From NCBI RefSeq assembly GCF_000159695.1, contig NZ_CM000955.1, forward strand, positions 389,001 through 453,000: a stretch of DNA of 64,000 bases, given 5' to 3'. The translations under genes and the position numbers were made by a program. The notes beneath the pieces were generated by a model. That model was not told where the DNA came from. It did no database searches and worked only from the letters and a program-made list of their open reading frames with translations. The stretch comes from Finegoldia magna ATCC 53516. Its GTDB lineage: Bacteria; Bacillota; Clostridia; Tissierellales; Peptoniphilaceae. This document shows, piece after piece, positions 53,971-62,222 of this stretch; positions within the stretch are counted from its first letter, which is position 1, and every line of letters starts with the position of its first letter.

Positions 53971-54018
53971 AATTTTTCTCCTCAATCGACAATAATTAAT
54001 TTGTTAAAATACAGATTT

Positions 54019-54046
54019 ATTATAACACTTGATAATTTTTTGTAAA
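54019..54046 (-). promoter_or_regulatory. promoter of the threonine aldolase gene
   Basis: TTTACA (54041-54046), 16 bases, TATAAT (54019-54024) on the minus strand. Confidence 0.7.
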
Positions 54047-54059
54047 GAATATTATTCAC

Positions 54060-55820
54060 TTATTTTGTGTATAAGCATTTGATGTAATATGTCATTTTTT
54101 GTCCATTATCATAAATGCATTCCGCTCTTTCAAGTATCGTCTTGTATTTACGATTGTTAATTACACCTTCATCTTTTATTAAATTGTCAGGATCTTCTGT
54201 GTTAATATCAGGACCTTGTAGATTCCACAATTCTTCTAATCTGTTATTAAATATTTCTATGTTGAATTTGCCAATTGTTTCATTTTTGTATTTTATAACA
54301 ACAATATTTGATTTTTTGGAAAACGTAACGTTTTGATTTCCTAAATTTTCGATATTTTGTGTGTTGGAATCGTATTGAAATTGAATATTTTCCAATAAAC
54401 GGTCGTAGTTTGTCGTATTAATTTCTAACCTATCATTGACAAAGGATCTGATTTGTCCGTATAGTGACTCAAATTCGTTTCCTCTGAATCCAAATACACG
54501 ATTCATATCCTCTTGTGAAGTTGTAAATTTATCACCCAAATAAGGAAGTTCTTTTGCGCTATGTTTGACTACAAAATAGTCAAGTTTGTCTTTTATTTCC
54601 TTTATTTTAGCTGGATTTACATTGCTTTGAGGTTTTATTTTGCCATCTACAAGCAGATTTTCTTCAACTAGCATTTTTTCTAATTTGGCTTTTTGGTCTA
54701 TTCTACTGATATTATATGCAGAAAGAGGTCCCACCGAAGAAATCAATGCCAATATCAAAAACGTCGTCGGTATCGTGATGTATGTCTTCTTGTTGAAGAA
54801 TAAATAGTAAATCATTGATATAACAATGAATATTCCGCCAACTACCACAAGATATCTTTCTTCCGTAACTCCATAATATGATATTCTGATTCCTATTGAG
54901 TAAAACATCATAACAGAAAGTATCAATAATATTATAGGTTGAATTTTATTGTAAACATTTATGAATTTGTCTTCTACAGTTTTTAATATGAACAAGACCA
55001 CTACTGAAAGCAATCCATACCACAAAATAAGATTTGTGATGATATTGTTAGGTATCGTCTTTAAAACTACTACCTTTATTATATATAGAAGTAAAATAAA
55101 ACCGTATATCAAAAATATCGGAGCAATAATTCTCGTAAATAAAAACTTAAAAGGCAAAAGCCATTTGATTTTTAGATTTTCGTCACTATATTTCAACGGG
55201 AATTTTGATAAAATTATAGATGCATTTAGCAATAGAAAAATTACCGCTGCACATGATACTATGACATTGCTAAGATTAAATTGTAGTTTGAACAGTTCCT
55301 TTGTCGTGAACAAAATGGCAACAATTCCTATAAAAATCGTCACGCAATAAATCAACGATTCTATTATTGATAAAACTATTTTAACTGCGTAATCAGCATA
55401 GTCAACTCTCACATTAAAGTGTCCTGCTACAAACATTCCAACAAAAAGCGTAACAAATAATCCAATCTGAGTGATTTGATTTCTAAGTACGAAGGACTTA
55501 TCTACCTTTATTATTAGGAAATAGCACACTAATCCCATAATCACTGAAACAATTGTATATACCAAAGCTTTTTTGCCCTTGGTGATTTCTATGTTTTTGT
55601 CAGTGATTATCAGCTTTACAATCATGTAGCTCATCGCAAAATAAAGCAAAGAAATAAGTAAATCCGCTGTTAAAGTGCTATTTAATGCACCGATTTCGAT
55701 ATACCATATCCCCATAATTGCAAATATCGTAGCAATAAATATGGCAAGTAATACCATTGGATATAGCTTTATTGTTTTCTTTAAGTTTTTAAGTTTCGAT
55801 TTAAAAATATCTAACCTCAT
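54060..55820 (-). CDS. DUF4153 multi-spanning membrane protein
   Basis: 586 residues: about 11-12 membrane helices in residues 20-380, then a soluble C-terminal part of 200 residues (KLEKMLVEENLLVDGKIKPQS and onward). The helix layout and length are those of DUF4153 proteins of Firmicutes, whose function is unknown. AGGAGG precedes the ATG. It follows the frameshifted alkyltransferase gene. Confidence 0.8.
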   Translation of the reverse strand: MRLDIFKSKLKNLKKTIKLYPMVLLAIFIATIFAIMGIWYIEIGALNSTLTADLLISLLYFAMSYMIVKLIITDKNIEITKGKKALVYTIVSVIMGLVCYFLIIKVDKSFVLRNQITQIGLFVTLFVGMFVAGHFNVRVDYADYAVKIVLSIIESLIYCVTIFIGIVAILFTTKELFKLQFNLSNVIVSCAAVIFLLLNASIILSKFPLKYSDENLKIKWLLPFKFLFTRIIAPIFLIYGFILLLYIIKVVVLKTIPNNIITNLILWYGLLSVVVLFILKTVEDKFINVYNKIQPIILLILSVMMFYSIGIRISYYGVTEERYLVVVGGIFIVISMIYYLFFNKKTYITIPTTFLILALISSVGPLSAYNISRIDQKAKLEKMLVEENLLVDGKIKPQSNVNPAKIKEIKDKLDYFVVKHSAKELPYLGDKFTTSQEDMNRVFGFRGNEFESLYGQIRSFVNDRLEINTTNYDRLLENIQFQYDSNTQNIENLGNQNVTFSKKSNIVVIKYKNETIGKFNIEIFNNRLEELWNLQGPDINTEDPDNLIKDEGVINNRKYKTILERAECIYDNGQKMTYYIKCLYTK

Positions 55821-55906
55821 AATTTCCTCCTGCTTTTCTTAATTATATCACGACAAATATCTTAAAAATCGCTTAAAAACATTTGTTGCAATTTCGTAAA
55901 CATTGC

Positions 55907-56382
55907 TCAAATATTTACAAAAGGTTTGTTATTTTGTTCCAAATCTAATAAATACTTTTTCTTTTCTATTCCAAATTTATATCCAGTAAGAGCATTGTTT
56001 TTCCAATCACTCTGTGGCAAGGTACTAAAATCATCAAATCGTTTGAGCCAACAGCTCTTCCAACTGCTCTTGCTGATGTTTTAGTGCTGTAGATTTCTTC
56101 GTATTTTTCTTTGATGTCGGTATATGTTGCAATCATTCCATACGGAATTTCACACACTAACTTCAATATCTTAGTTGTGTAATCTGATTTATCGATTAAT
56201 ATATCGTCAAATTGCCCTGTAATTTTACCCGAAAAATAATCGTCTAAATAATTCTTACATTTTTCAATTATTTCATCATTCCCCTGTTCTACAAAAAAAT
56301 CTGTAAATTCACATTTTGTTATATTTTTTCCGTCACTTTCGATAAGAATATTTCCTAATTTTGATTTGTAAATATCTCTCAT
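55907..56382 (-). pseudogene. ogt: methylated-DNA--protein-cysteine methyltransferase, frameshifted at the C-terminus
   Basis: The first 138 residues read as a normal Ogt/MGMT (IPYGMIATYTDI, SARAVGRAVG, PCHRVIG with the acceptor Cys122), but the frame then ends early at 55966. A five-base T run on the + strand (A run in the gene, 55998-56002) would need one more base: read in the next frame the chain continues KNNALTGYKFGIEKKKYLLDLE and ends at 55907, exactly the family ending. So one A is missing, by mutation, slippage or sequencing error. The ATG at 56382 lies in the tail of the preceding terminator; the nearest ribosome site (AAAGGAG at 56411-56417) is on the far side of the hairpin. Confidence 0.8.
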
Positions 56383-56384
56383 AT

Positions 56385-56407
56385 AAAAAGCTCGGATAAA
56401 TCCGAGC
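56385..56407 (-). terminator. terminator after the permease gene, at the start of ogt
   Basis: GCTCGGA and TCCGAGC arms with loop TTTA are followed by TTTTTAT; the ogt ATG follows directly. Confidence 0.75.
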
Positions 56408-56415
56408 CATCTCCT

Positions 56416-57114
56416 TTATTTTACATTTAAGCTTTTGATGAAGTTAGTAAATAATACAGACAATATAAGTGCTATTACTCCAACTCCCAAATAGATATAC
56501 ATGTTAAGTCCACTAAATAATTTGAATGCTGATATCAAATATTTTGAGAAAAATACATTTACAGCGACTACAATAGCTGTAAATAAAATAAATATTTTCA
56601 CAGCTCCAAATTTGTAAGCTAAAAATATTAAGGACGTGAATGCTAAGCTACACAATGATGAAATCACAAAAACTATAGGCATATATGATAATAAAGATCC
56701 TTTTGTGTAGATTCCAATCTTGTCGTAATATGTTTCTATCTGTCTAGCATGCAATAATCCCGACATTATCCTTGTCAAATAAATTATTCCAATTATCACA
56801 CCAAAAACTAATGCCACATTGAAAATTCTTTCAAATATTGTAGCTTTTTTGATTTGTTTTCTGTGGTATGATGATTCGATATTTATTCCAAAATCTTGAA
56901 AATAATCCTTACTTGCTATTAATAAAAAGTAGAAGGTGTTTAACAAAAACATTGGCACAACGTAAGTGAACAATGGTAATTTGCTAAAATCGAATTTCCA
57001 AATTTTAAAATAAGAAAGTCCTCCTATTATAGCCAATATTACAACAGACACGAGAAGAGTGTAAAATAAATAAGATATACTAGCCGATAGCTTCTGTCTT
57101 AACAGTCTTTTCAT
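56416..57114 (-). CDS. ABC-2-like membrane protein, partner of the dead ATPase
   Basis: 232 residues with six hydrophobic segments (about 18-40, 50-70, 105-125, 148-170, 178-195, 208-228) and short loops. It shows the outline of a small ABC-2 type permease such as the YtrC class, without a clear motif. The ATG at 57114 follows GAGGAGGG and overlaps the upstream ATPase-like gene by 35 bases, so the two are coupled. Function unknown. Confidence 0.65.
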   Translation of the reverse strand: MKRLLRQKLSASISYLFYTLLVSVVILAIIGGLSYFKIWKFDFSKLPLFTYVVPMFLLNTFYFLLIASKDYFQDFGINIESSYHRKQIKKATIFERIFNVALVFGVIIGIIYLTRIMSGLLHARQIETYYDKIGIYTKGSLLSYMPIVFVISSLCSLAFTSLIFLAYKFGAVKIFILFTAIVVAVNVFFSKYLISAFKLFSGLNMYIYLGVGVIALILSVLFTNFIKSLNVK

Positions 57115-57967
57115 AATTTCCCTCCTCAATCATTGTAATTAGTTCGTCTAACGGTAATTGTTTTACTACACATCCGTTATTTTCAAGTAAAAGGCGTTCA
57201 TCTTCGTTGATGCTATCAAACATTTTTATTTCATCTTCGAGTCCATCAGAAGTTCTAGTCAATATTCTCTTGTAATTCATCGCCGATATGATTTCTTTTG
57301 GTCCACGAATCACCTTAGCATTTGTCAGTATATTGTGCTTGGAGTCTTTGAATTTAATTCTACCATCTTGCATTAAAATCAAATAATCGAAGAACACTTC
57401 CTCTACTATTGGCGATGAAATCAAAACCGTATTTCTGATTAATTCTTGTCGTTTTTTCATAATGTCAATAAATTCCAATGAAAGCTTCCTATCGGCTATT
57501 TCAAAGTTTTTAAGAATTACTATCTTTTTGTTTGTAGCCAAAGCAGCCGTCATCAACACAATATTGCAGTAATCTTCCTTCAAATCTTCTAACCTTGCAA
57601 ACTCGTCAATTGCAAAACCTTTGAGTACAGAATCTACAAATTGTTCATCGAAATAAGGATTCAACTTCTTTTTTAATTTAAGATACTTTTTCACTTTCAT
57701 TGATGAGTTGTAATCTTGTAAAAATGTTGAAAATTCTACTTCATTTGTTAGTTTTGGAGTCTTAAGTACATTTTCTTTGTCTTCGAAACCATACAAAAAC
57801 TCCCCATTGTATTTAGTTGTAAAAGATCCTAAAATATCAAACAATTCATCAATATTTTTGTCGTGACCTGTAAACAAATATATGTAACCTTCTTCTATTT
57901 CAAGGCTACAATCCAAGTCAATTTTTTTGAATCTTCTTTTTTTGTTTATGTTATCTATCGTATACAT
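57080..57967 (-). CDS. degenerate ABC-transporter ATPase (all catalytic motifs lost)
   Basis: 295 residues with the fold outline of a YtrB/EcsA-type NBD but no catalytic motif. Walker A is FTGHDKNIDELF (34-41) where GxxGxGKST is expected; the signature is EDLKEDYCN (127-135) in place of LSGGQ; Walker B ends ILKNF (151-155) in place of LDEP; the D-loop is ADR; the H-loop reads LISSPI with Pro186 for His. The C-terminal QDGRIKF matches a normal NBD end. The frame is complete, so this is not simple decay of one base. It presumably keeps a structural or regulatory role with the overlapping permease (inference). Confidence 0.7.
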   Translation of the reverse strand: MYTIDNINKKRRFKKIDLDCSLEIEEGYIYLFTGHDKNIDELFDILGSFTTKYNGEFLYGFEDKENVLKTPKLTNEVEFSTFLQDYNSSMKVKKYLKLKKKLNPYFDEQFVDSVLKGFAIDEFARLEDLKEDYCNIVLMTAALATNKKIVILKNFEIADRKLSLEFIDIMKKRQELIRNTVLISSPIVEEVFFDYLILMQDGRIKFKDSKHNILTNAKVIRGPKEIISAMNYKRILTRTSDGLEDEIKMFDSINEDERLLLENNGCVVKQLPLDELITMIEEGNYEKTVKTEAIG

Positions 57968-57975
57968 AAAATCTC

Positions 57976-58488
57976 CTATTTAAATCTCGAATGAGATAGT
58001 CTACTTGCCGCAGCCGCTGCAATCGCAGCCACTATATCATCCAAAAATGTGTTAACACAATCAGTTTTCTCCACATCTAACTCTTTGATAATTCCGATTT
58101 TTTCCTTATCCAAATACCCAAAATTAGTGAAACCTATTGACCCATAAACGTTTATAATCGACAAAGCCAACACTTCGTCAATTCCATAAAGGCTCTCATC
58201 AGATTCAATAATTTTTTGAATTGGATCATCAAACAGTTTCTTATCACAAGCTTTATCAATTGCAATTCCAGTTAAAACGCATTGTAGCACTTCTCTTTTT
58301 TCCAAAACTTTCTCCACATTTTCAATGCATAACTCCATTGTCAAATTAGGATAGTATTTTTCTTGTAAAGTGAACACTATTTTTGCAATTTCTTCTATCT
58401 CAACGCCTCTTTCTTGTAATTGGCGAATCGTAATCTCTTTCAATTCTTGAATAGTATAAGGATATTCAGAAACTTTTTTTCTACCCAT
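57976..58488 (-). CDS. YutG/PgpA-like phosphatidylglycerophosphatase family protein
   Basis: 170 residues close in plan to B. subtilis YutG: LQERGVEIEEIAKIVF, KYYPNLTMELCIENVEKVL, DESLYGIDEVLALSIINVYGS, GFTNFGYLDK and a C-terminal DDIVAAIAAAAASRL. The family is annotated PgpA, which dephosphorylates phosphatidylglycerol phosphate; the short YutG type is soluble. AAAGGAGG precedes the ATG. It is the first gene before the degenerate ATPase, eight bases away. Confidence 0.85.
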   Translation of the reverse strand: MGRKKVSEYPYTIQELKEITIRQLQERGVEIEEIAKIVFTLQEKYYPNLTMELCIENVEKVLEKREVLQCVLTGIAIDKACDKKLFDDPIQKIIESDESLYGIDEVLALSIINVYGSIGFTNFGYLDKEKIGIIKELDVEKTDCVNTFLDDIVAAIAAAAASRLSHSRFK

Positions 58489-58545: not shown

Positions 58546-59478
58546 CTAATTTGTCGGTAATTTTCTTTTAGAATATATAACTTTTACTTTATCTCCAATT
58601 TCATTTTTAAAATCATTGTTGAGCATATAAGAATCGATAGTTTTGTCATCTAATTGTATCTCAACTTTTACGCTTGAGCCTTGGAACACAATATCCTTGA
58701 TAATACCATCTTCTCCTTGGTCTGAAATTTTTACATCTTCTGGTCTAACGTAATATCCTTCAAAAATATTTTTATCACCGATAAAATTCAACACGAAATT
58801 ATTTTTCGGATTTCTGTAGATATCCAAAGGATAGGAATGTTGTTCAATTTTACCTTTATTCATCAAAATAATATCGTCAGCCAATTCAAAAGCTTCATTT
58901 TGATCATGAGTTACAAAAATCATCGAAGTTCCCAAATTTTTTTGGATATTTTTTATAAGAAGTCTCATGCTAACTCTCAATTTTTGGTCCAAGTTACTCA
59001 AAGGCTCGTCCAATAATAAAAGTTTCGGACTCAAAACCAATGACCTCGCAAGGGCAACTCTTTGTCTTTGACCGCCAGATAATTCATCAATCATTTTTTT
59101 CTCATGACCTTTTAGGCCTACCAAATCTATCATTTCGTTGACCTTTTTCTCAATACTAGATTTGTCCATGTTTTTGAATTTCAAACCATAAGCGACATTT
59201 TTGAACACATTCATGTGGTAAAAAAGCCCATAAGATTGAAATACAGTTGTTATATCTCTTTTTTCTGCTGTCAAACGAGTGATATCTTCTCCATCCAAAA
59301 TAATTTGTCCGGAATTTGGCTTCACAAAGCCACCTATCATGTTTAGTATCGTGCTTTTGCCACAACCTGAAGGCCCCAAAATACACAACATTTTCCCTTT
59401 TTCCAAATCAAATTCCACATTATCGACTACTGTTTTATCTTCGTAAATTTTAGTAAGGTTTTTAACACTCAAAATCAT
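58546..59478 (-). CDS. iron/spermidine-type ABC importer ATP-binding protein
   Basis: 310 residues: Walker A GPSGCGKST, Q-loop, signature LSGGQRQRVALARSL, Walker B LLLLDEPLSNLD, H-loop VTHD, then a C-terminal TOBE-like regulatory domain of 90 residues. Family PotA/FbpC. Overlaps the permease by four bases. With the neighbours it forms an iron(III)-type importer. Confidence 0.9.
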   Translation of the reverse strand: MILSVKNLTKIYEDKTVVDNVEFDLEKGKMLCILGPSGCGKSTILNMIGGFVKPNSGQIILDGEDITRLTAEKRDITTVFQSYGLFYHMNVFKNVAYGLKFKNMDKSSIEKKVNEMIDLVGLKGHEKKMIDELSGGQRQRVALARSLVLSPKLLLLDEPLSNLDQKLRVSMRLLIKNIQKNLGTSMIFVTHDQNEAFELADDIILMNKGKIEQHSYPLDIYRNPKNNFVLNFIGDKNIFEGYYVRPEDVKISDQGEDGIIKDIVFQGSSVKVEIQLDDKTIDSYMLNNDFKNEIGDKVKVIYSKRKLPTN

Positions 59479-61070
59479 TTTTTATCTCCTATTTTTGTTA
59501 ACAAATAATATCCACCGTTTACAACAAGACATATCAAAATTATTATTAACGCAATCACTGAACCTATATTGTAATTGCCACTGTTTATAACATCAAACAT
59601 CACAAGCGTTAAAACTTTTTGACCTGGATAAACCAAGAAAATAATAGAACCTATTGTAGTCATAGTAGCTGTGAATGCGTTGATAAATGTCACTGTAAAT
59701 CCTTTTTTGGTAAGAGGAAGCACAATATCTTTAAAAACATAAATAAAATTTGCACCCAAATCCTGTGCAGAATTAATTTCATCTTCACTGATTGATAATA
59801 CGTGACTGTTCATAACTTTTGTTGAAAACGGCATTTGTTTGAATAAAACATTCAAAACCACAATTGCACTCGTTCCTACTAAAAGCAATGGTTTGTGATT
59901 GAATGCCAATAAATATCCCAACCCAAAGAAAGTTCCTGGCAAAATATATGGCAAATTTGAAATATAATCTGCAACTTTAATCACCTTACTCTTCTTAATT
60001 ATAGAATAGTATGCCATCAAAAGCCCTATCATACTTCCAAAGAACGCACTAATCAAAGAGTACACAATACTTCTTGTAATTGTGTTTGTAATGTAAGATT
60101 TGGAATTTCTGAAGTTTTCCAAAGTAAATATAAGTTCGTTGTTTTTCATTTTCGTAAATGCTGACAAAATAATTGACGCATATTGAATCACAAGCCAACT
60201 CAACAAAAACACACTAATAACACACAAGAAATAAAATACAGCAGATTTTTTGTCAATAATTGCACTTTGTGAAGAATTAGAATTGATATTGCTTTTTCTC
60301 ATAGACTTCGAATAAATGATAAACATAATAACAGAAGGAATCAAAATCATTATATTGATAACTGCCGCAGTTTTAATATCTCCTTTGCTAATGACCGACA
60401 TGTATCCTTCACTTGCCAGAACGTTAAACTTACCACCTATAATTGCAGGAGTTCCAAAATCCGCAATCGAACGAATAAATGTGAGAAAAAACACAGAAAT
60501 CAATGTATTTTTTAATTGTGGAATTAAAATATCGATTACTACATGGTTCGTATTCGCCCCCAAATCAATTGCTGAATTGATAGAAGCTGTATCCAAATTA
60601 TTAAGATAAGATATAACCATTAAACAACTCAACGACAAAAATCCCAAAGTTTCCATTAATATAATTCCCGTCATTCCATAAGGATTGGTGTTTAATTTCA
60701 ACAAATTGTACGTGATGAACCCTCTTCTACCGAATAAATTTATGTAAGACAAACTTGTTACAAAAGGAGGCGTAATCATCGTCACCAATAAAATTGCACT
60801 GATGATTTTTTGATGGATTTTACCACTCAAAAAGCAATACAATCCAATTATTGCAGAAAAAACAGTCGTTAAAACCGATACAATAAAACCAACAGTAATT
60901 GAATTCACAAACAGATTTTTGTTCTCTTTAAATACATTTAATATAAAATCTATTGAATTGCCTCCATCTGCAGTGAATGCTTCTTTAAATACATACAAAA
61001 ATGGAAGTCCAATAAAAACGAATATGAGTAGGAAAATTATGTATTTAATAAATTTATCTAATATTTTCAT
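59475..61070 (-). CDS. iron-type ABC importer permease (fused two-domain)
   Basis: 531 residues with about 12 membrane segments, made of two BPD_transp domains in one chain as in FbpB/SfuB. ATPase-docking loops are INSAIDLGANTNHVVIDILIP and INSAQDLGANFIYVFKDIVLP, each with the EAA-like Gly. Translocates the ligand passed on by the binding lipoprotein. Confidence 0.9.
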   Translation of the reverse strand: MKILDKFIKYIIFLLIFVFIGLPFLYVFKEAFTADGGNSIDFILNVFKENKNLFVNSITVGFIVSVLTTVFSAIIGLYCFLSGKIHQKIISAILLVTMITPPFVTSLSYINLFGRRGFITYNLLKLNTNPYGMTGIILMETLGFLSLSCLMVISYLNNLDTASINSAIDLGANTNHVVIDILIPQLKNTLISVFFLTFIRSIADFGTPAIIGGKFNVLASEGYMSVISKGDIKTAAVINIMILIPSVIMFIIYSKSMRKSNINSNSSQSAIIDKKSAVFYFLCVISVFLLSWLVIQYASIILSAFTKMKNNELIFTLENFRNSKSYITNTITRSIVYSLISAFFGSMIGLLMAYYSIIKKSKVIKVADYISNLPYILPGTFFGLGYLLAFNHKPLLLVGTSAIVVLNVLFKQMPFSTKVMNSHVLSISEDEINSAQDLGANFIYVFKDIVLPLTKKGFTVTFINAFTATMTTIGSIIFLVYPGQKVLTLVMFDVINSGNYNIGSVIALIIILICLVVNGGYYLLTKIGDKK

Positions 61071-61086
61071 AATTTACTCCATTTAA

Positions 61087-61143
61087 AACAAGCACCCGTT
61101 AAGGTGCTAGTAAAATGGGAGAAACCTGATAGATTTCTCCCTA
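61087..61143 (-). terminator. two hairpins between binding-protein and permease genes
   Basis: GGGAGAAA/TTTCTCCC (61117-61141) comes first after the stop; AGCACC/GGTGCT (61091-61108) follows with a weak TGTTTT tail. They could end part of the transcripts or protect the 5' gene. Confidence 0.65.
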
Positions 61144-61148
61144 TTAAA

Positions 61149-62222
61149 TTACTTATTTTTTACAAATTCTGAGAATTTATTTAAAATAGCTTCTCTCTTT
61201 TCACCAAAAGTAGACAAATCTTGTTTGATTAAGTTTTCTTTTTTCAACCCTAAATCAAGACCTTTGATTCCATCTTTAACCATTTGGTTAGAATCTTTTC
61301 CGTCTATTTCTGCTAACATTTGTAAAGATTCATCTTCTAACATGAAATCGATGAATGCTTTTGCAACTTCAGTGTTAGGTGAATTTTTGAAAATAGCTAC
61401 TCCTTCTGGAACCCATGGAATACCATCTTCAGGATAAACAACAGTTAAGTTGTTATCTTTTGCTGTATCAAACGCTGATTTGTCAACTGGAATAATACCA
61501 ATTCCAAATTCTCCAGCTGCTGTTTTTTCTTGAGGATCTTTTCCTCTTTTGCCGTAGAAGCTAATATTATCATTTAATTTAGATAAATAATCCCAACCTT
61601 TTTCTTCGCCGTATTTGTCCAATAATCCTTTAACTGCTGCGTAGTTTGTACCAGAGATTGAAGGATCGCTCATGATTACTTCGCCTTTGTATTTTGGATC
61701 TGCTAATTCATCCCAAGTTTTTGGAACTTCTAAGTTTTTAGATTTTAATACTTCGTTGTTTGCTAAGAAACCAACAACTGTGATTCCTTTTGATAACCAA
61801 TAACCATCTTTGTCTTTGTAATCGTCTGGAATTTGTTTCAAAGCTTCAGATTCATATTTTTCTAACATATCGTCTGATTTAGCTTTCATGAAAGCGTCGA
61901 TTCCGCCTCCAAACCATACATCAGCCATTGCTTTACCTTCAGCCTTAGCTCTCGATAAAACTTCACCACTTGACATAGATAAGAATTCAACCTTAGCTCC
62001 TGTTTTTTCAGTGAACTTGTCAAATAATTTTACGTATTTGTCGCTTGTAGCAACAACGTTCAAAGTTTTACCTTCAAACTTTTTAGCGTCGTCTACTTTT
62101 TCTTCAGTTTTTGTAGATTCTTTTGATGTTGTTTCTTTTGAATTATCTTTTGATTGACAAGCAGTCAACGCAAAAATTAACATTAAAGAAAGACTTAACA
62201 TCTTTAAAAATTTGTTTTTCAT
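61149..62222 (-). CDS. iron(III)-type ABC importer substrate-binding lipoprotein
   Basis: 357 residues. Signal peptide with lipobox LTAC (Cys22), a Ser/Thr/Lys-rich spacer, then an SBP of the FbpA/FutA class: LNVVATSDKYVKLFDKFTEKTGAK, ADVWFGGGIDAFMKAK, VGFLANNEVL, WDELADPKYKGEVIMSDP. It captures the ligand for the permease; iron is most likely, but phosphonate or other metal importers of this clan have similar sequences. A near-normal ribosome site GGAGGGA precedes the ATG. Confidence 0.9.
   Translation of the reverse strand: MKNKFLKMLSLSLMLIFALTACQSKDNSKETTSKESTKTEEKVDDAKKFEGKTLNVVATSDKYVKLFDKFTEKTGAKVEFLSMSSGEVLSRAKAEGKAMADVWFGGGIDAFMKAKSDDMLEKYESEALKQIPDDYKDKDGYWLSKGITVVGFLANNEVLKSKNLEVPKTWDELADPKYKGEVIMSDPSISGTNYAAVKGLLDKYGEEKGWDYLSKLNDNISFYGKRGKDPQEKTAAGEFGIGIIPVDKSAFDTAKDNNLTVVYPEDGIPWVPEGVAIFKNSPNTEVAKAFIDFMLEDESLQMLAEIDGKDSNQMVKDGIKGLDLGLKKENLIKQDLSTFGEKREAILNKFSEFVKNK

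Follow-up and report, generated by a model that had tools for sequence, protein, structure and literature searches.

What does an ATP-binding cassette (ABC) protein do once the residues that bind and hydrolyze ATP are gone, and why would its gene be kept beside that of a permease? This question is raised by a 64,000-nucleotide stretch of the Finegoldia magna ATCC 53516 genome (NZ_CM000955.1, positions 389,001 to 453,000; the window), in which a gene for an ABC nucleotide-binding domain (NBD) homologue, here termed the pseudo-NBD, overlaps that of a small permease and follows a PgpA/YutG-like gene. Our best explanation as a whole, to which we assign a probability of roughly 0.6, is that this protein is a pseudo-ATPase of Finegoldia that acts with the permease in an ATP-independent complex.

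Descent of the pseudo-NBD from an ABC NBD is established by profile comparison and predicted structure. Near-full-length profile matches connect it to intact NBDs with the same neighbors, and its structure model is a confident NBD fold. The family's C-terminal region and a small permease downstream are also present in Finegoldia, as in YtrB/PmtA-like operons. The initial annotation, made by eye from the sequence, had recognized an NBD outline and named structure prediction among the checks; the predicted fold and the profile matches bear the outline out. Chance resemblance of an unrelated protein to an NBD would be in keeping with a Pfam scan that gave zero matches at E ≤ 10 and with a Finegoldia-only profile search that yielded no solved structure at an E-value under 0.59, but the near-full-length matches and the confident model leave this a negligible chance, and we reject it. 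Pfam ABC_tran (PF00005) was found in 57 of the 71 members of alignment A3, all 57 non-Finegoldia, and in 0 of the 14 Finegoldia members. A Foldseek search with the permease fold returned no match below E 3.9.

Motif positions were read by alignment with intact relatives (Table 1). The A-loop Tyr of the relatives is R11 in the pseudo-NBD. Walker A, GRNGVGKTT in the relatives, reads GHD-KNIDE, with Ile39 in place of the Lys and the first Gly (G34) retained, and seven of its eight positions are invariant across 14 Finegoldia sequences. Walker B FDEP is replaced by LKNF, placing K153 and N154 at the positions of the Asp and the catalytic Glu; 13 full-length database matches have (K/N)N there. The H-loop STH is SSP, and P186 is Pro or Glu in the 14 Finegoldia sequences. 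Contrary to the initial annotation, which counted the D-loop among the losses, Asp159 is retained and is invariant in 71 of 71 aligned sequences. The same annotation held that the motifs were replaced, not deleted. This is largely accurate, but the P-loop and the D-loop have each lost one residue, and another two are missing after the H-loop. Of the features that define an ABC NBD, the protein has the homology, the fold and the D-loop Asp, and lacks the Walker A GxxxxGK(S/T), an LSGGQ-type signature, the Walker B Asp and Glu and the H-loop His. As judged from these residues, it very likely does not hydrolyze ATP.

The losses are shared by the Finegoldia sequences recovered. A search of 5.8 billion clustered proteins (threshold E ≤ 10) returned 16 matches, all named ones from Finegoldia. 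Thirteen are full length at 71–94% identity, and the canonical motif residues are absent in all 13, so the survey of orthologues that the initial annotation had proposed did not find close orthologues that keep GKST and DE. P0012, with a later start (265 aa), also lacks the motifs. Two other matches stand apart. P0015 (193 aa, on a 1603-base contig; a cluster of 14 sequences) lacks Walker A, the signature and Walker B and runs in another frame after residue 161, reflecting either a broken allele or a sequencing error. P0016 (172 aa, on a 721-base contig) fuses the permease start to the pseudo-NBD end, in the order opposite to that of the genome, and is probably a chimeric assembly.

Relatives outside Finegoldia retain the motifs. 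All four motif patterns fit 30 of 31 non-Finegoldia loci; the 31st, L047, was read from an internal start only and has a stop inside its match. One locus, L007, has an odd D-loop, ETFVSCD. At the order level, the Finegoldia-only profile matched 15 of 249 genomes, and the 13 non-Finegoldia matches (four already among the loci read) have the four motif patterns as well as GntR and permease neighbors. At the class level, 12 of 391 genomes matched, 11 of them non-Finegoldia, and the nine loci read from these 11 all fit the patterns. Two protein searches, the second of which scored 7998 candidates, gave a pooled set of 93 proteins. Here, 60 of the 77 non-Finegoldia proteins fit four simple patterns and 17 miss one, none more than one: the strict LSxG pattern is missed by 15, the H-loop by P0030 (Asn replaces the His) and Walker B by P0072 (the Walker B-to-D-loop stretch is absent, with Walker A intact). 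The Walker B pattern also flagged six Finegoldia proteins, which carry FDEI elsewhere and KNF at the true Walker B position. No other motif-less relative was found among the non-Finegoldia proteins and loci examined. Because Finegoldia lacks the motifs while non-Finegoldia loci keep the patterns, the loss is peculiar to Finegoldia among the sequences examined.

Both genes are under purifying selection. Nei–Gojobori dN/dS values for the pseudo-NBD, between the window and two other Finegoldia genomes, G001 and G002, are 0.039 (window–G002), 0.041 (window–G001) and 0.020 (G001–G002), and those for the permease are 0.075, 0.080 and 0.070 for the same pairs. An intact neighboring NBD gene gave 0.030 (window–G001). 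The dN/dS check thus upholds the earlier claim of selection on both genes. A decaying relic, heading for loss, would account for the missing motifs, the long stem branch described below and the one frame-broken match, P0015. The gene is, however, full length in 13 of the 16 database matches and in G001 and G002, its dN/dS is 0.02–0.04, and the largest cluster among the matches holds 923 member sequences, all of which make such decay highly improbable. Neither the broken frame nor the relaxed selection of a pseudogene was found, apart from P0015, the sole broken copy on record. Recent decay is ruled out by the loss in all 13 full-length matches, the frames and the rates.

The timing of the change can be placed on the tree, in which the 14 Finegoldia rows form one clade with support of 100/100. 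Their stem branch, at 2.89 changes per column, is the longest in the tree, and the midpoint root, used for drawing, falls on it; the tree identifies no sister group. Against 25 relatives, the NBD has a mean identity of 21.4%, compared with a norm of 37.1% (excluding pairs with NBDs at least 60% identical), and lies below all 25; the permease has 15.2% compared with 17.1%, and three of the 25 are lower. Since the NBD falls below every relative and the permease lies near its norm, the NBD appears to have been rewired and then held while the permease underwent close to ordinary family divergence.

The pair is also divergent within the genus. The bins at 56501–57500 of the window, spanning the permease and the pseudo-NBD end, are the two least G001-like of the 128 500-base bins (82.6 and 83.0%). 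Synonymous divergence (dS) to G001 reaches 0.9–1.0 at the pair. It is 0.08–0.16 in the following three genes, 0.59 and 0.54 in the two preceding ones and 0.28–0.12 further out. The region is probably a divergent allele acquired through recombination. Against G002, the lowest-identity bins adjoin it at 54001–56000.

Conserved segments in both proteins, together with the retained gene pair, bear out the pairing of NBD and permease that had been claimed. Residues 79–103 of the pseudo-NBD, which we take from ABC structures in general to be the Q-loop, permease-facing stretch of the coupling groove, form the longest run identical to P0014, an orthologue at 71% identity (equaled in 209 of 20000 shuffles). 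In the permease, 20 of 31 positions of residues 66–96 are invariant, compared with 99 of 232 overall, among eight Finegoldia permeases (the window and seven of 12 database matches, the five shorter ones being excluded), and R85 is the same residue in all 30 family permeases aligned. P0014, the most divergent NBD, and P0104, the most divergent permease, share one longest-contig size in their records, suggesting a single genome of origin. Judged by sequence, the two proteins of the pair likely form a complex.

Constraint on the former motifs raises a second possibility, that the ATP pocket was rebuilt for another ligand, whose binding gates the permease. The Walker A and signature equivalents (GHDKNI and LK(E/D)DYCNIVLM) are constant from 94% to 71% identity, and across the 14 Finegoldia sequences 40 of 59 motif-segment positions are invariant, compared with 132 of 236 elsewhere. 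This excess is modest, however; among the Finegoldia sequences residue 40 is variable, as are the equivalents of Walker B, the D-loop and the H-loop, and no search pointed to a ligand. We therefore consider a rebuilt pocket unlikely, although it is the stronger of the alternatives weighed here.

Under the other functional alternative, the pseudo-NBD would be a silent half within a heteromeric transporter, and an intact NBD encoded elsewhere would power the permease. An ABC heterodimer shares its two ATP sites between both NBDs. Because the pseudo-NBD would offer a partner neither a signature nor Walker motifs, neither site would be complete. The operon also lacks a second NBD gene in the window, G001 and G002, and in the window it has no consensus ATP site. 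Candidate partners do exist in these genomes, with 15 NBD-type matches in G001 and 14 in G002 (18 candidates scored in each). Degenerate sites are described as common in heterodimeric ABC exporters (PMC7756269) and are noted for RbsA and NupO of B. subtilis (PMC11466899). Taken together, a silent half seems to us improbable, somewhat more so than a rebuilt pocket.

The gene neighborhood of the pair was also examined. The full-length pseudo-NBD frame overlaps that of the permease by 35 bases in the window, as the initial annotation had described, and does so in G001 as well; 8 bases separate the upstream gene from the pseudo-NBD. That gene matches PF04608 (E 2.6e-22), in line with the YutG-like lipid phosphatase gene noted earlier. 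It stands in front of the pair in the window, G001 and G002, with the same three-gene spacing in G001 and the same gene order in G002. The tie to a lipid phosphatase is one of gene order. A hairpin that matches a terminator pattern is possibly the end of a unit of these three genes.

Table 1. Features of the locus, with positions in the window.
Feature	Position	Strand	Description
Pseudo-NBD	57080–57967	−	295 aa, ATG start; ABC NBD homologue without catalytic motifs
Walker A equivalent	57845–57868	−	Residues 34–41, GHDKNIDE; one residue shorter than GRNGVGKTT
Q-loop/permease-facing stretch (presumed)	57659–57733	−	Pseudo-NBD residues 79–103
Signature equivalent	57569–57583	−	Residues 129–133, LKEDY; LSKGE in intact relatives
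Walker B equivalent	57506–57523	−	Residues 149–154, IVILKN; DE replaced by KN
D-loop equivalent	57488–57499	−	Residues 157–160, IADR; one residue short, Asp159 retained
H-loop equivalent	57410–57421	−	Residues 183–186, ISSP; His replaced by Pro
Permease	56416–57114	−	232 aa, ATG at 57114; six hydrophobic peaks
Permease coupling-type segment	56827–56919	−	Residues 66–96, flanked by TM2 and TM3 in the model; cytoplasmic side inferred
PgpA/YutG-like gene (PF04608)	57976–58488	−	Occupies the position of the relatives' GntR gene
Terminator-like hairpin	56389–56408	−	3′ of the permease; pattern match only
Methyltransferase-like gene	55966–56382	−	138 aa, 3′ of the permease; named by eye
FbpABC-like import operon	58546–62222	−	Binding protein, permease and intact NBD; named by eye

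In relatives, the gene immediately upstream encodes a GntR regulator: each of the 30 upstream proteins scanned is PF00392, and one is visible by eye in L048. Among the class-level distant relatives, a GntR gene of this kind was found in six of nine loci. None is present directly upstream of the pseudo-NBD in the window, G001 or G002. A relocated partner was sought in G001 and G002, where the best match to a relative's GntR has E 5e-11 and about 30% identity. These matches adjoin canonical NBD operons (L054, L055 and L061) or, in L057 and L058, a 444-aa membrane protein, so none stands out as the former regulator. At L057 (1378–1728, − strand) and L058 (1477–1827, + strand), the GntR-like gene overlaps the membrane protein gene, not an ABC NBD gene. 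From the side of pgpA, 62 of 130 family genomes matched and 30 loci were examined; in the 28 non-Finegoldia loci, profile searches found no NBD or permease within about 1.5 kb. Since the GntR gene is absent in Finegoldia and no such pair lies near pgpA in the 28 other loci, either the pair or pgpA appears to have moved, bringing the pair directly behind pgpA, with loss of the regulator gene.

Two neighbors differ between genomes. The methyltransferase-like product (158 aa in G001 and 155 in G002) departs from the frame of its homologues after PCHRVIGK, a frameshift or a sequencing error. Bins 59001–62000, in the FbpABC-like operon, have no match in the compared 80-kb stretch of G002, and this operon is therefore variable within Finegoldia.

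With homology, motif loss, selection and gene order established as above, the following course can be proposed. A GntR-regulated YtrB/PmtA-like NBD–permease pair in a Finegoldia ancestor would have lost its regulator gene and ended up directly behind the pgpA/yutG-like gene. The NBD would have lost nearly all ATP-binding and hydrolyzing residues in one burst, after which selection held it. In the likeliest mechanism, a pair of pseudo-NBDs would dock onto two permease subunits, using the usual NBD groove and the permease coupling segment, and would keep the permeases in a fixed or a ligand- or partner-controlled state with no power stroke from ATP. Such a complex could act in the membrane as a scaffold, a sensor or a passive conduit and would be made along with the PgpA-like enzyme. 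Its 2:2 stoichiometry, the scaffold or sensor role and any connection to phosphatidylglycerol synthesis are speculative. The new kind of membrane complex proposed in the initial annotation is an inference. In its fullest form, this would be a wholly ATP-independent ABC descendant: a dimer of pseudo-ATPases would join a small permease in a stable complex that serves as a scaffold, a sensor or a passive conduit, is fixed within the genus and is co-expressed with a phospholipid phosphatase. We regard this as evenly poised.

If true, both ABC sites are dispensable while the NBD itself stays required. Complete catalytic loss on one stem branch, followed by strong constraint, makes this gene a natural test of what NBDs do beyond ATP hydrolysis, whether they hold the permease, respond to a partner or do both. 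For annotation the gene is a warning: its database label is "ABC transporter", although ATP use is not to be expected.

Among known systems, the intact relatives are of the YtrA-YtrB-YtrC/D and Pmt sort, and the Finegoldia protein is a descendant that no longer has the catalytic hallmarks of membership. PmtABCD of Staphylococcus aureus (PmtCD structures 6xji, 6xjh, 9q1y and 9q2n) has a GntR gene, unlike Finegoldia, whose locus encodes a single NBD and a single permease. PmtA and PmtC are named ATP-binding proteins in database records and reportedly retain the ATPase motifs. YtrABCDEF of Bacillus subtilis, with the GntR repressor YtrA, the NBD YtrB and the membrane proteins YtrC and YtrD, is the kind of operon seen in the intact relatives (GntR, NBD, permease). 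It has been tied to cell-wall thickness, with its substrate unproven (PMC7828314). The Finegoldia locus, by comparison, has neither a repressor gene nor ATPase motifs; it encodes one permease and is preceded by a PgpA-like gene. Where an ABC transporter has one degenerate site, it retains one working ATP site. By contrast, the only NBD of the Finegoldia operon has no catalytic motif. TM287/288, BmrCD, TAP, RbsA and NupO have likewise lost Walker or signature residues and are still in use. In the titles and abstract openings listed from open-licence PMC papers, neither this gene nor an NBD that lacks every motif yet pairs with a permease was described, a weak absence. The pseudo-GTPase domains of p190RhoGAP (PMC5593906) are likewise a nucleotide-binding fold without the usual catalysis, although they belong to an unrelated family and not to a membrane complex.
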